Source: Patescibacteria group bacterium (GTDB taxonomy: Bacteria > Patescibacteriota > Microgenomatia > UBA1400 > MFAQ01). From it: a DNA stretch of 35,898 nt. The notes beneath the pieces are model-generated. The model was not told where the DNA came from and made no database searches. It was given only the letters and a program-made list of their open reading frames with translations. The DNA is taken from NCBI GenBank assembly GCA_943355005.1, contig CALRDV010000010.1, forward strand, positions 1 to 35,898, given 5' to 3'. Each line of letters opens with the position of its first letter. Within the stretch, counting starts at the first letter, position 1. Positions 5,889-27,346 of this stretch are shown piece after piece. The position numbers and the translations under genes are program-made.

Positions 5889-5917
5889 TGGATTCCGGGT
5901 CAAGCCCGGAATGACAG
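5889..5917. repeat. Dispersed palindromic repeat, family 2 (copy 1)
   Basis: GGATTCCGGGTCAAGCCC followed by GGAATGACA, a perfect-stem element (TTCCGGG/CCCGGAA). Related copies lie at 17681, 17754, 18889 (variant) and 21913. Confidence 0.85.
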
Positions 5918-20130: not shown

Positions 20131-23100
20131 TTATTTTTTGTGTTTTGTTCCTGGATTGCCACGCTTCGCTCGCAATGACGATATTACATTTATGATGAAA
20201 ATAAAAATGAGGGAAATGGGGATGAGAGCGAGACCGATGAATTCGAGGTATTGGGGAAGGTAGACAATTGCTATGTTTGTAGTGGAGGAGGGAACAGACC
20301 AGGAGTTGTACCAATCGTTCGAGTCCAATTGGCTTAATTTGTTTAAATATGGGTAGTACATAAATATCTTTAGAGTAAGTAGTGCCGGGTGTGACTGCAT
20401 GTCACTTTGAGATACTTCTACGGCCTTCCAGTAGGGGGATTTGGTTTGGTGGAGATTAAGATTTAAATCCCTCTCGGCTTCGCCGCTTCTCCCTTTGACA
20501 AGGGAGAGTGTATAGAGGAATTCGGCGGGATGGGTGGAGGAGAGTTCAAAGTTCTTGGTAGTTGGTGCTTGGTTCTCGGATGGAGCAATGAAGATGGATT
20601 TGAGAAAGTTTAGGGGGATAGGTCGGATAAAAATGGAGGCGAGATTATTTGTGGTGATCTTATTTCCAATGGATTGGTTATAGAGGTGAAGAGTGTATCC
20701 TGCCTGTTCGTTCGAGTTTGCAATGGGTTGAATAATGGACTGGGAAAGTCCAATGGAGTCCAGTCGATCAAAGACATCGCAACGGAAAGTGGAATGATTT
20801 TCAAAACAAATTCCAAGGGGAAGGCCTGACTGAAAATAGTTGGTGAAGGTTAATAAGTAATTTAAAGAGTGGGGAAGGTGACGAAGGTTTAGATAGTCGC
20901 ATTCGATGGCATTTTGGCTTTGGTAGAGAAAACCTTCCGGGGTAACTGTTTTAGAAGTTTTGCCAGTATTAAACTGATCACAATTTAGGTTCTCCGGAAA
21001 GAGCCTGTTACTAGAAGGTAGCTCGCTAATATCGTAGGAACTAGTCGTAATCGGTAAAGAGACTTGGAAGTTTTTTTCACCACCCGATAACTGTATGGTT
21101 TTTTCAGTGATATTGAATAAAAGTAGCGATGAGGAAAATAATTTATCGTGGGTCGATACTTTTACATTTGAGTAATTAATTTCTTGAACGGATTTGGTAT
21201 CGGAGGCTTCTAAAATTAGGTTGACTTGCTGTACCTTGCCTGAGGATTTGACAAATATTTGAGTTTCTCTCGGCTCGGCCTTTGCCTCTAAGGCTTGAGG
21301 AATTTCCAGAGGGTTGAGGTCTTTTCCTGAAATGTTAGCGTTTGCCGGAGTAAGTGAAGATGAACTGTAAGTAAAAGATAGGGAGATCATGGATCCGTCC
21401 GGTATGAATGGAAGTGGGGCTGAGAGACAGCCGATTACGTCGGTACCATAAAGAGAAACACTGTCATTGGTGACGATTTTTTCAATCTTTCTGTTTGGTT
21501 TGATGGTATAACACTGGGTGGGATTTGACTTTGATAAAGCATTGTTTAGGCTGTAGATGTCAGAAGCTAGAGCATCAAAAAGATTTATTTCGAAATTTTC
21601 CTTCGAAGGTAAATACGTGGTAGCCAGTGACATAAAATCGGTGGAAGATGGAATCTCGGCAGGAATCTGAACTGGAAAATATTGATTGCCGACTTGAAGG
21701 ACAAAACTTTCTTTGGTTCCAATTGGGATGTCAATTGTAGATGGTGTGGCGTCTATGTCAATTTGTTTGGAGTCTATAAAAAATACAGGGGTAATTGGAG
21801 TGAACTGTAGTCCAAGATTGTTCCCCATACGACGATATTCAATTTTGACGGGGATGAGTTTTTCGGATTCGGTGAGGGAGGGAAGGGTGAGGGAAAAAGT
21901 TGAGTTATTGGATGGATTCCGGGTCAAGCCCGGAATGACAGATATGTTTGACAATGAAATGGAGGTGGAGAGGTAGCCTGCCTTTTCAGTCCAGTCTCGG
22001 TTAGGACGGAGGGAGAGATTTGAAAATGGGAGAATTGAGTTATCCTGGATTGCCACGTCGCCTTTGGCTCCTCGCAATGACGAATTAAGGGAGAGGAAGT
22101 TTTGAGTTGGCTGAGATAGTTTGGTTTGGTAGAGAAAAATTCTGTCATTAAAACTTTTGGATAAAGTAAATTTGGGGGAGTTGAGAAAATTTTCCAGAGT
22201 CTCATTACCTAAGCCTGTCTTACCATCCGGTGAGATGACGTGTTTGTCCAGAAGAATCCAGTTGACAGAATATTTATCAATAATCTTTTCAAACTCAGAT
22301 TGGTTATTGCTGAAAATTGCCGTAGAAATTTCCTCGTAATATCTTTCAGAATTTTTATCCCAGACATCGAAAGCTCTATCCAGGATTGGCTGTTCAATGC
22401 CATACCAGAGAAATCCTGATCCGCGATAACCCCAGTCATAATAATTCCAACCCCAGAATGTGTATTGAGGTACATTTGCTATTCGTGTAGAAGTGTCTTG
22501 GTTTTTTAGATAGGAAAACAAGTCAAAGTATTCGTTAGGAATTTTTAGCTTCATGTTTGAAGAAATTAGATTCCCCGAAAAAGCAGGAGACGTAAAAAGA
22601 ATCAATGCAACAGAAACACTAAAAAGGGTTAGAACATAAGTGAGCCGACTATGTAAAAATGTAAAAAGATCGAGGATGAACATGCTACCAATAGAGAAAA
22701 AGAAGGCGAACGCCAAAGAAAGAGGAATGGAGAACTTGGTGAATGGAGAGCGGAAAAGTTCACCGATAAGCGGAATGGCACTATTTATAAGTAAGCCTCC
22801 ACCCATAAGGAAAAATAAACAGAGAAAAAGCATAATCATAAATGAGGCTGTCCAGGCAAATTTTTTCTTGACTGAGTAGTAGAGACCAGTGAGAATGACG
22901 ATAAAAATAAGGTAACCAAGAAGGTTTACGAGGGGTGTCGCAAGATGACCGCGCCATACATTAAGAAGGTAGCTAAATTTATTTATACTACTCATATCGA
23001 GGTAGTTGAACAAAAATCCTTTCATAAGAGCCAGGTCCGGAAGGTTGGCAAACTGAAGATTGCGATAGTAGGTCTCAGGGGAAGAAATATTGTTGGCTTT

Positions 23101-23943
23101 TGCTGCTTCTGTTACGTGACCGCCACCAGTTAGAACAAAAAAGGCAACGGGTAAAAGCCAGAAAAGTTGAGGGGTGATGAGGGAAAATAGACTAGCAGAG
23201 ATAATTTTTATAGAGGTTAATGTTTTTCTCTTTTGAAAATAGAACTCTATTAGAAAAGGAATAATGGAAACAAAGAAAACAAGAAAAATAGTTTCGACAT
23301 AGAAAGACGGAGAAGCGATTAAGGAAATTATAAATAATGTGGATAACCTCTTCAGAGAAGGCTTGCTAATATAGGAAATGGTAAAAAAGAGTAACCAGGG
23401 AAGTGCACCATAGAACCAAGTAAAGGTCTCGAATGGAACAAAAAATGTCTGCAAGGTGCTTAAATTGAGGAGATAGAATAGAGCTCCAAGGAAAGAGGCA
23501 AACTGGGTGGTCTTGGCATCTAGTTTTTCTTTGAATAAGTGATGATAGAAGAGAAAATAGACGCCGAGAGGTCCTAAGACGAGGGGTAAAAAAGTGGTGA
23601 TATATCGGATAAGAGAATTATCGATTTTTAATAAACTTAAAAGAAAGACAAGGAGTACTCTGGGAAGATCGGCAGCATGAGCCATGCCCCCCAATAGACC
23701 GAGAGACTGGTACTCTTGCCAGACTGCAAAAAACGCTCTTTTGAGATTTAATAGTGGATTGAGTTCGGACTGAAGATTGTCCCAGCCGACGAGATAAGTC
23801 CCCGGTTCGTAATTGAGGTAGACAAGAAATAGGGTAATGGCGACTAGGGCGAGAACAGGCCAATTAACCCTAAAGAAACGGGGAATGAGCCGAATCTGGC
23901 GGAGTGGGAAGCGGTGTTTCAGTTTGGTGATATTCTTCGGCAC
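20131..23943 (-). CDS. Large membrane protein, GT-C/YfhO-like, with in-frame repeat insertions
   Basis: 1270 aa. About 12 TM helices fill residues 28-460. A long extracytoplasmic region follows, then one TM near 1230-1253 and a short basic tail. An early acidic motif after TM1 (LVGWDNLQSELNP) and the overall layout recall large GT-C glycosyltransferases such as arabinofuranosyltransferase AftD-like or YfhO-like proteins; this is a layout-based guess. Dispersed DNA repeats are translated in frame at residues about 620-634 (SLRGAKGDVAIQD), 668-677 (VIPGLTRNPS), 1145-1160 (KGRSGEAERD) and 1254-1264 (SLRAKRGNPG, the C-terminus). The start is GTG with no Shine-Dalgarno site; it is divergent from the ABC permease gene by 33 nt. 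The likely role is envelope glycan assembly. Confidence 0.8.
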   Translation of the reverse strand: MPKNITKLKHRFPLRQIRLIPRFFRVNWPVLALVAITLFLVYLNYEPGTYLVGWDNLQSELNPLLNLKRAFFAVWQEYQSLGLLGGMAHAADLPRVLLVFLLSLLKIDNSLIRYITTFLPLVLGPLGVYFLFYHHLFKEKLDAKTTQFASFLGALFYLLNLSTLQTFFVPFETFTWFYGALPWLLFFTISYISKPSLKRLSTLFIISLIASPSFYVETIFLVFFVSIIPFLIEFYFQKRKTLTSIKIISASLFSLITPQLFWLLPVAFFVLTGGGHVTEAAKANNISSPETYYRNLQFANLPDLALMKGFLFNYLDMSSINKFSYLLNVWRGHLATPLVNLLGYLIFIVILTGLYYSVKKKFAWTASFMIMLFLCLFFLMGGGLLINSAIPLIGELFRSPFTKFSIPLSLAFAFFFSIGSMFILDLFTFLHSRLTYVLTLFSVSVALILFTSPAFSGNLISSNMKLKIPNEYFDLFSYLKNQDTSTRIANVPQYTFWGWNYYDWGYRGSGFLWYGIEQPILDRAFDVWDKNSERYYEEISTAIFSNNQSEFEKIIDKYSVNWILLDKHVISPDGKTGLGNETLENFLNSPKFTLSKSFNDRIFLYQTKLSQPTQNFLSLNSSLRGAKGDVAIQDNSILPFSNLSLRPNRDWTEKAGYLSTSISLSNISVIPGLTRNPSNNSTFSLTLPSLTESEKLIPVKIEYRRMGNNLGLQFTPITPVFFIDSKQIDIDATPSTIDIPIGTKESFVLQVGNQYFPVQIPAEIPSSTDFMSLATTYLPSKENFEINLFDALASDIYSLNNALSKSNPTQCYTIKPNRKIEKIVTNDSVSLYGTDVIGCLSAPLPFIPDGSMISLSFTYSSSSLTPANANISGKDLNPLEIPQALEAKAEPRETQIFVKSSGKVQQVNLILEASDTKSVQEINYSNVKVSTHDKLFSSSLLLFNITEKTIQLSGGEKNFQVSLPITTSSYDISELPSSNRLFPENLNCDQFNTGKTSKTVTPEGFLYQSQNAIECDYLNLRHLPHSLNYLLTFTNYFQSGLPLGICFENHSTFRCDVFDRLDSIGLSQSIIQPIANSNEQAGYTLHLYNQSIGNKITTNNLASIFIRPIPLNFLKSIFIAPSENQAPTTKNFELSSTHPAEFLYTLSLVKGRSGEAERDLNLNLHQTKSPYWKAVEVSQSDMQSHPALLTLKIFMYYPYLNKLSQLDSNDWYNSWSVPSSTTNIAIVYLPQYLEFIGLALIPISLIFIFIINVISSLRAKRGNPGTKHKK
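20150..20181. repeat. Dispersed palindromic repeat, family 1 (copy 4)
   Basis: CCTGGATTGCCACG-CTTCG-CTCGCAATGACG. It overlaps and encodes the C-terminus of the 1270-aa membrane protein. Confidence 0.85.
20463..20508. repeat. Repeat-like element of a third type, in frame in the 1270-aa gene
   Basis: It contains two small palindromes (GGCTTCGCC and CTCCCTTTGACAAGGGAG) and encodes LVKGRSGEAERD. This sequence type is common as a dispersed element in many bacteria; only one copy was seen here. Confidence 0.5.
21913..21940. repeat. Dispersed palindromic repeat, family 2 (copy 5), inside a coding region
   Basis: GGATTCCGGGTCAAGCCC then GGAATGACA, encoding VIPGLTRNPS in frame in the 1270-aa protein. 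Confidence 0.85.
22042..22085. repeat. Dispersed palindromic repeat, family 1 (copy 5), inside a coding region
   Basis: CCTGGATTGCCACG, a variable centre (GCCTTTGGC), then CTCGCAATGACGAAT. It encodes SLRGAKGDVAIQD in frame in the 1270-aa protein. Confidence 0.85.
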
Positions 23944-26546: not shown

Positions 26547-26592
26547 GGACCTACGAGGACAGTCCCTCCTACGGCGGGCAGGCCTTGAAGGC
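26547..26592. repeat. Degenerate palindrome flanking the RAYT gene (3' side)
   Basis: CCTACGAGGACAGTCCCTCC is a degraded relative of the CCTACAAGGAGACTCCTTG palindrome on the other side of the transposase gene. A TCAAGG/CCTTGA pair encloses it. Confidence 0.45.
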
Positions 26593-26607
26593 GTTTATAT
26601 TTTGGGT

Positions 26608-27291
26608 TTAGTTGTAGTCCAAAGCAGAGAAGTAAATTGGAGTAATGTCGAGAGGTTCTTCGACAAAATTTTGATATGAATTTTTGTTGTTTCCGAAGTT
26701 TCTTAAAATCTCTTCAGGATTAATCCAGGTCTGTCGGAAGTTGCCAAGGTAATTGCGATATGAAGAATATTTGTATTCCGAAAGACTACAAGGAGTCTCC
26801 TTGAAGATGGGGAGGTCTAGGGGGTTTTGGTGGATATATTTTGAGAGGTGGATCCACTGATTTTCAGTCTCAACCTTGACTGCCTTGTAAGTATCTTGAA
26901 AAAGATGTCCAACTCTCTTGTATCGAGTATTGAAATATCTGACATATTTGGTTGACAATGAGCGCATAAAAAAATTTATAGCCTGTTCAGAGTTTTGATG
27001 AACAAAAAGATGAAAGTGGTTTGGCATTAAGCAGTAGGCTAAAAGTTCAATTTCGTCTAGATAATTTTTCGATTTTCTACTTGGAGAGATTGACTTCAAG
27101 ACCTTCAAGGAGACTCCTTGAAGGTCTGTTTGGTTTTGAAAATCTTGGCTGGTGAGATAGAACTTGAGGTAGGATAGAAATGTTTTGTAATCTTGATCGT
27201 CCAGAAAAATGATGCGTTTCTCAACCCCTCGATTGTATATATGGTAATAAGCTCCGGCTTCATATTCTTTTATAGCGTTTTTTGAGGGCAC
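26608..27291 (-). CDS. REP-associated tyrosine transposase (RAYT, Y1 family)
   Basis: 227 aa. HUH motif LMPNHFHLF with the catalytic Tyr in LSKYIHQNP, plus the N-terminal YHIYNRG signature of IS200-like single-strand transposases. RAYTs are domesticated enzymes that act on short palindromes (REPs). Here perfect palindromes built on CAAGGAG-N-CTCCTTG lie upstream (27324) and, strikingly, twice inside the gene (26786, 27100), translated in frame as PCSL and LQGVSLKVL. The start is GTG with no Shine-Dalgarno site. All catalytic residues are present, so it may be active. Confidence 0.9.
   Translation of the reverse strand: MPSKNAIKEYEAGAYYHIYNRGVEKRIIFLDDQDYKTFLSYLKFYLTSQDFQNQTDLQGVSLKVLKSISPSRKSKNYLDEIELLAYCLMPNHFHLFVHQNSEQAINFFMRSLSTKYVRYFNTRYKRVGHLFQDTYKAVKVETENQWIHLSKYIHQNPLDLPIFKETPCSLSEYKYSSYRNYLGNFRQTWINPEEILRNFGNNKNSYQNFVEEPLDITPIYFSALDYN
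26786..26806. repeat. REP-like palindrome inside the RAYT gene
   Basis: CTACAAGGAGTCTCCTTGAAG; the core CAAGGAG-T-CTCCTTG is perfect. Confidence 0.75.
27100..27126. repeat. Perfect 27-nt palindrome inside the RAYT gene
   Basis: Arms GACCTTCAAGGAG and CTCCTTGAAGGTC around one central A. It shares the core of the palindrome upstream of the gene. Confidence 0.85.
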
Positions 27292-27323
27292 TAAATTAAT
27301 ATTACTTCTTTGAGTTAATTTCG

Positions 27324-27346
27324 CCTACAAGGAGACTCCTTGTAGG
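27324..27346. repeat. Perfect 23-nt palindrome upstream of the RAYT gene
   Basis: Arms CCTACAAGGAG and CTCCTTGTAGG around one central A; probably the REP cognate to this RAYT. Confidence 0.85.

Follow-up and report, generated by a model that had tools for sequence, protein, structure and literature searches.

Palindromes inside a patescibacterial RAYT-like transposase gene as probable resident copies of its own REP

The stretch of DNA analyzed here, referred to as the window, is a single contig of 35.9 kb from a 1.25-Mb genome (labelled G000). It encodes a RAYT-like transposase with palindromes around and inside its gene. The features of the locus are as follows:

26608..27291, minus strand: RAYT-like Y1 transposase gene, 227 aa, GTG start, PF01797 match
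27010..27018, minus strand: HUH motif, HFH, residues 92-94, invariant or nearly so in sibling alignment A1
26836..26838, minus strand: putative catalytic tyrosine Y152 (KYIHQNP), invariant in sibling alignment A1
27324..27346, no strand: UP, perfect 23-nt palindrome CCTACAAGGAGACTCCTTGTAGG, 32 nt ahead of the start codon
27099..27127, no strand: S1, perfect 29-nt palindrome in the coding sequence, residues 55-65 (TDLQGVSLKVL)
26786..26806, no strand: S2, 21-nt palindrome in the coding sequence with one mismatched pair, residues 162-169 (IFKETPCS)
26550..26572, no strand: DN remnant, decayed palindrome of a different type with a GGACAGTCC centre, ~36-58 nt past the stop codon

The protein encoded at 26608-27291 scores above the cut-off for the Pfam Y1 transposase family PF01797. 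As expected of a RAYT, it combines this domain with an HUH motif and a putative catalytic tyrosine; from knowledge of the family, we take HFH (92-94) and Y152 to be the catalytic residues. A profile search of PDB sequences with the window RAYT gave no match, but a structural search did, and the best fold match of its predicted model is 4ER8, the E. coli RAYT with a bound REP hairpin. Against the NCBIfam equivalog REP_Tyr_transpos the protein reaches 38 bits, below the cut-off of 80, which marks a divergent relative and makes "RAYT-like" the safe name. Named relatives are found in Candidatus Beckwithbacteria, Levybacteria, Daviesbacteria, and other Patescibacteria. The AlphaFold model (mean pLDDT 69, 14 sequences) has only two internal low-confidence segments, residues 51-59 and 158-171, and the S1 and S2 palindromes fall in these predicted disordered loops.

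An earlier, sequence-only reading of the locus described a perfect 23-nt palindrome upstream, two palindromes within the gene, and a degraded copy downstream, all built on CAAGGAG-N-CTCCTTG. The upstream and the two internal palindromes are present. The inner perfect palindrome is 29 nt long rather than 27, and the 21-nt palindrome, built on the expected core, carries one mismatched pair. The downstream copy is not of this type and is instead a decayed palindrome of another. This remnant (CCTACGAGGACAGTCC..., from 26550) matches a perfected form of itself at 16/23 positions and the UP palindrome of the gene at 14/23 at most; shuffled versions of the DN stretch match UP at 10.9 positions on average, with a 99th percentile of 14. 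A comparison string, CCTGCCGTAGGAGGGACTGTCC, was modelled on the DN stretch itself, so its 21/22 match is meaningless and was left out of the evidence.

The window contains exactly three copies of CAAGGAG-N-CTCCTTG (26789-26803, 27106-27120, and 27328-27342), and the exact 15-mer is found only once elsewhere in the 1.25-Mb genome, within another gene. A scan of the whole 35.9 kb (arms of at least 10, loop of at most 3) returned only two perfect palindromes, the 29-mer at 27099-27127 and the 23-mer at 27324-27346. As single-stranded DNA, UP and S1 fold into hairpins far better than shuffled sequences do (z -6.0 and -5.4), and S2 slightly better (z -1.9). An Rfam search over the window gave no match. 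The window also contains other dispersed repeats: one family, GGCTTGACCCGGAAT, lies on the minus strand at 5892, 17756, and 21916, and another repeat, GCGAGCGAAGCGTGGCAATC, at 20154. Those at 20154 and 21916 are within a large ORF, 20131-23943 (RAKRGNPG and PGLTRNPS peptides).

Siblings drawn from 54 related genomes and a public genome collection comprise 140 distinct RAYT genes, in which palindromes occupy up to four fixed places: UP, ~30-60 nt before the start codon; S1, near codons 50-70; S2, near codons 148-168; and DN, near the stop codon. Flanking palindromes are present in 98/140 genes. An internal copy of the gene's own flanking palindrome, defined as at least 17/21 identical positions, is found at one or both of S1 and S2 in 52/140. 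Among these 52 genes, S1 is palindromic in 38, S2 in 32, both in 18, and all four places in 16. No cognate internal copy is found in 46 of the 98 genes with flanking palindromes, and many siblings lack S1 or S2. The 35 closest siblings include 14 with four cognate sites and 10 with three, and the genes L017, L043, and L048 carry an identical 21-mer at all four places. A fixed orientation of the four copies was rejected, as there are only weak trends pairing UP with S1 and S2 with DN (both at an uncorrected p of 0.036).

In most close relatives the two internal places are likewise filled, and this holds for syntenic orthologues whose DNA differs by about 25%. They are also filled in relatives at 50-75% protein identity, and S1 even in Parcubacteria. 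The internal palindromes are thus not recent insertions peculiar to the window gene, and recent self-insertion of REPs into this gene in particular, one of the earlier proposals, is very improbable. Insertion as such occurs or has occurred, as indicated by in-frame copies of the same family at tolerant places of other genes.

The palindromes could alternatively reflect no more than the conservation of the protein sequence and its codon usage, and close siblings do have similar S1 peptides (LQGxSLK). The sequence-only reading had named siblings with the same residues in non-palindromic codons as evidence against itself; many siblings do the opposite and keep the palindrome where residues change. 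S1 is read in one frame in 33/37 genes, whereas two frames occur for S2, giving different peptides. Synonymous shuffling never attained the internal match in 43 of the 98 genes that have flanking palindromes. The arms of S1 also covary: 9/9 arm pairs have changed on both sides and 95.3% of cells are paired, a level reached by 0/500 shuffles, none of which came close. An origin in codon use therefore has next to no chance of being correct. Peptide-based recognition, where the loop encoded by a palindrome reads that palindrome, is also unlikely because S2 is read in two frames and both loops are modelled as disordered.

The coding sequence leaves its mark on S2. With the reading frame of the window gene, TTGAAG at the end of the right arm would place a TGA codon in frame. 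Among close siblings sharing this frame the arm ends in TTGTAG, TTGCAG, TCGTAG, TCGCAG, or CTGTAA, including those whose other copies have TTGAAG, and genes using the other frame use the TTGAAG ending freely. The mismatched pair of the window S2 can thus be attributed to the stop codon that an S1-like arm would create there.

Palindromes vary widely between RAYT genes but agree within a gene. Internal copies match their own flanking palindrome at 18.5/21 positions and those of other genes at 11.0/21. When the gene's own flank and that of its nearest relative were compared for their match to the internal copy, the own flank won 49 times, tied 10 times, and lost twice; phylogenetically independent pairs gave 21 wins, 5 ties, and 0 losses. 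The earlier proposal that the internal palindromes are the enzyme's own putative REP-type targets is well supported, as they track the flanking ones from gene to gene.

The most telling test is one syntenic locus of a single genus (L015, L039, L041, and L016), where the copies have switched together. L015 and L039 have the CTACGAGGACCAT type or close variants of it. In L041, all four places read CTGCGAGGATTAT, apart from a single change at two of them; in L016, three places read CTGCGAGGACTCT and UP is of the L041 type. The pair L048/L049, also syntenic, shows one two-sided change shared by both internal copies of L049 relative to those of L048. These comparisons show the internal palindromes to be cognate REP-type elements evolving in concert at fixed places within the coding sequence. 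That all copies change jointly suggests copying from one palindrome to another, within genes too.

Palindromes of this family are also present outside RAYT genes, with 13 copies in the window genome (at most 2 mismatches to the family pattern) and 37 in the genome G007. The RAYT genes are bordered by palindromes that recur elsewhere in the genome, as expected of a RAYT. A copy identical to S1 over 23 nt lies in the ELP3 gene (L001:1497-1519; G000:C3:45740-45762), where it is in frame within the GNAT portion. The same loop holds other palindromes in 2/5 other genomes of the genus that have the region. The ELP3 palindrome adjoins another repeat-like stretch, GATTCCGGGTCGGAGCCCGGAATGACA.

The gene of the GTPase YchF (L163:1501-1523; G000:C3:103156-103178) has an in-frame copy of the palindrome of a second RAYT. 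Within the genus, 6/8 ychF genes carry a palindrome of this family at this place, and the types differ; only 2/6, those of G000 and G008, are exactly the type of their own RAYT. The YchF palindrome is eroded in G002, a genome where no RAYT relative was found. The YchF place of G007 (L183) has GCAGCACGAGACGTGCTGC, an unrelated palindrome type for which no cognate RAYT is known. Elsewhere in this genome, palindromes matching the local RAYT types (L192, L205, L194, and L193) are in frame in the RpiB and Obg genes (peptide LQGxALQ) and near the 3' ends of genes for a class I tRNA synthetase (arginine type, ArgS-like) and a pyridine-nucleotide reductase.

For 67 dispersed copies from 7 genomes, with sequences transcribed by hand, the match to the RAYTs of their own genome exceeded that of all 1,854 reassignments. 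G005 and G001 are exceptions, where dispersed copies match their own RAYT no better than others. In a hand tally over the related genomes, palindromes were present in 15/15 relatives with a strong RAYT match (>200 bits) and in 5/39 without such a match. Two identical palindromes of G000, CCTGCAAGGAGAGTCCTTGCAGG, at G000:C3:91517 (L162) and G000:C9:24134 (L168), match neither of its RAYTs and are possibly orphans of a lost RAYT.

In the non-syntenic pairs of L010 with L011, L012, and L013, homology stops at the outer edge of UP, and between L017 and L044 it stops there and also near DN. The evidence for a mobile unit is partial, as in other non-syntenic sibling pairs homology fades within the gene; several loci are syntenic.

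UP is often followed directly by a TATAAT-like -10 box (30/47 genes with at least 5/6 matches, compared to 14.4 in shuffles), and from this arrangement UP could act as an operator. Autoregulation had been raised in the sequence-only reading. The RAYT would bind hairpins formed by S1 and S2 in single-stranded DNA or mRNA, and/or UP at its promoter, and limit its own expression, with selection keeping the copies cognate. The fixed places in many genes, the position of UP against the box, and the stable hairpins are consistent with this. However, the -10 box of the window gene itself is weak (4/6, judged by eye), S1 or S2 is missing in many siblings, and the same palindromes persist in unrelated genes (ELP3, YchF, and Obg), so that no special regulatory role is needed for the internal copies. 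We regard autoregulation as an unlikely explanation.

The favored explanation, which we hold to be reasonably probable, is that S1 and S2 are copies of the RAYT's own REP resident in its gene, with UP, S1, S2, and DN kept alike by concerted evolution. All four places would have copies of the cognate REP, with S1 and S2 in frame in two loops that tolerate their presence. Upon a change of palindrome type, sites already occupied would change too, both in the gene and elsewhere in the genome. The process is probably driven by the RAYT itself. As a single-strand HUH nuclease recognizing such hairpins, the enzyme may do the copying by swapping one hairpin for another, and this copying may favor its own locus. 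Counting against this explanation are the siblings without cognate internal copies, the exceptions G005 and G001, and the four YchF palindromes that are not exactly of their own RAYT's type.

Similar patterns would also arise without a RAYT, through gene conversion by the host or template switching during replication among neighboring palindromes. Palindromes are prone to template-switch correction. Evolution of REPs via gene conversion was proposed as early as 1988, according to a title cited in PMC3116915. Generic recombination of this kind is nevertheless improbable, though slightly less so than autoregulation: dispersed copies also track their own RAYT, genomes without a RAYT are mostly without palindromes, and 23 nt is short for homologous recombination. 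A further reading, less probable than the favored explanation, is that the RAYT rewrites palindromes in place, in its own and other coding genes, to the current type, so that fixed positions are updated together. In a stronger form of this reading, copies in its own gene would make up a feedback loop coupling enzyme specificity to expression.

RAYT/REP systems (REPtrons; TnpA-REP of E. coli, Stenotrophomonas, and Marinomonas) include REP-bordered RAYTs and coevolution of enzyme and palindrome (PMC2817692, PMC3686654, PMC8266576). The genes described here share the Y1 HUH transposase gene between palindromes, the cognate copies elsewhere, and the coevolution, but differ in having cognate palindromes at two fixed places inside the coding sequence. 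In E. coli rayT, the sole gammaproteobacterial RAYT compared, REPs are outside the gene only. Classical REPs usually number >100 per genome, compared to about a dozen here, and none of the four sites has a conserved GTAG (or CGTC) tag within its 18 flanking nucleotides on each side; both the tag and the high copy number of a classical GTAG REP are thus lacking. As in IS200/IS605 elements, the transposase gene lies between terminal hairpins and some non-syntenic homology ends at palindromes, whereas internal cognate hairpins in the coding sequence and several loci inherited in place (syntenic) set these genes apart.

Intragenic REPs and Rickettsia palindromic elements (RPE) are palindromic repeats in frame in protein-coding genes, housekeeping genes included, and recB of two Xanthomonas species carries different REPs at about the same site (PMC3733652). 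Several of the dispersed copies described here are likewise in frame in coding genes, housekeeping included. The difference is that the host gene is here the cognate transposase and its intragenic copies switch type with the flanking ones. REP-bordered RAYTs, REP-RAYT coevolution, and intragenic REPs are thus known; in open-licence papers, searched without supplements, no description of a RAYT in Patescibacteria or of REPs inside a RAYT gene was found.

These genes bear on the question of how REPs disperse and how their match to the RAYT is maintained. With up to four cognate copies per gene at known places, the coevolution of enzyme and target can be read gene by gene in many variants. Every RAYT also comes with a predicted substrate of its own for use in binding and cleavage assays. 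Moreover, loops of housekeeping proteins would appear to be reshaped by a process that acts on DNA and not on protein.
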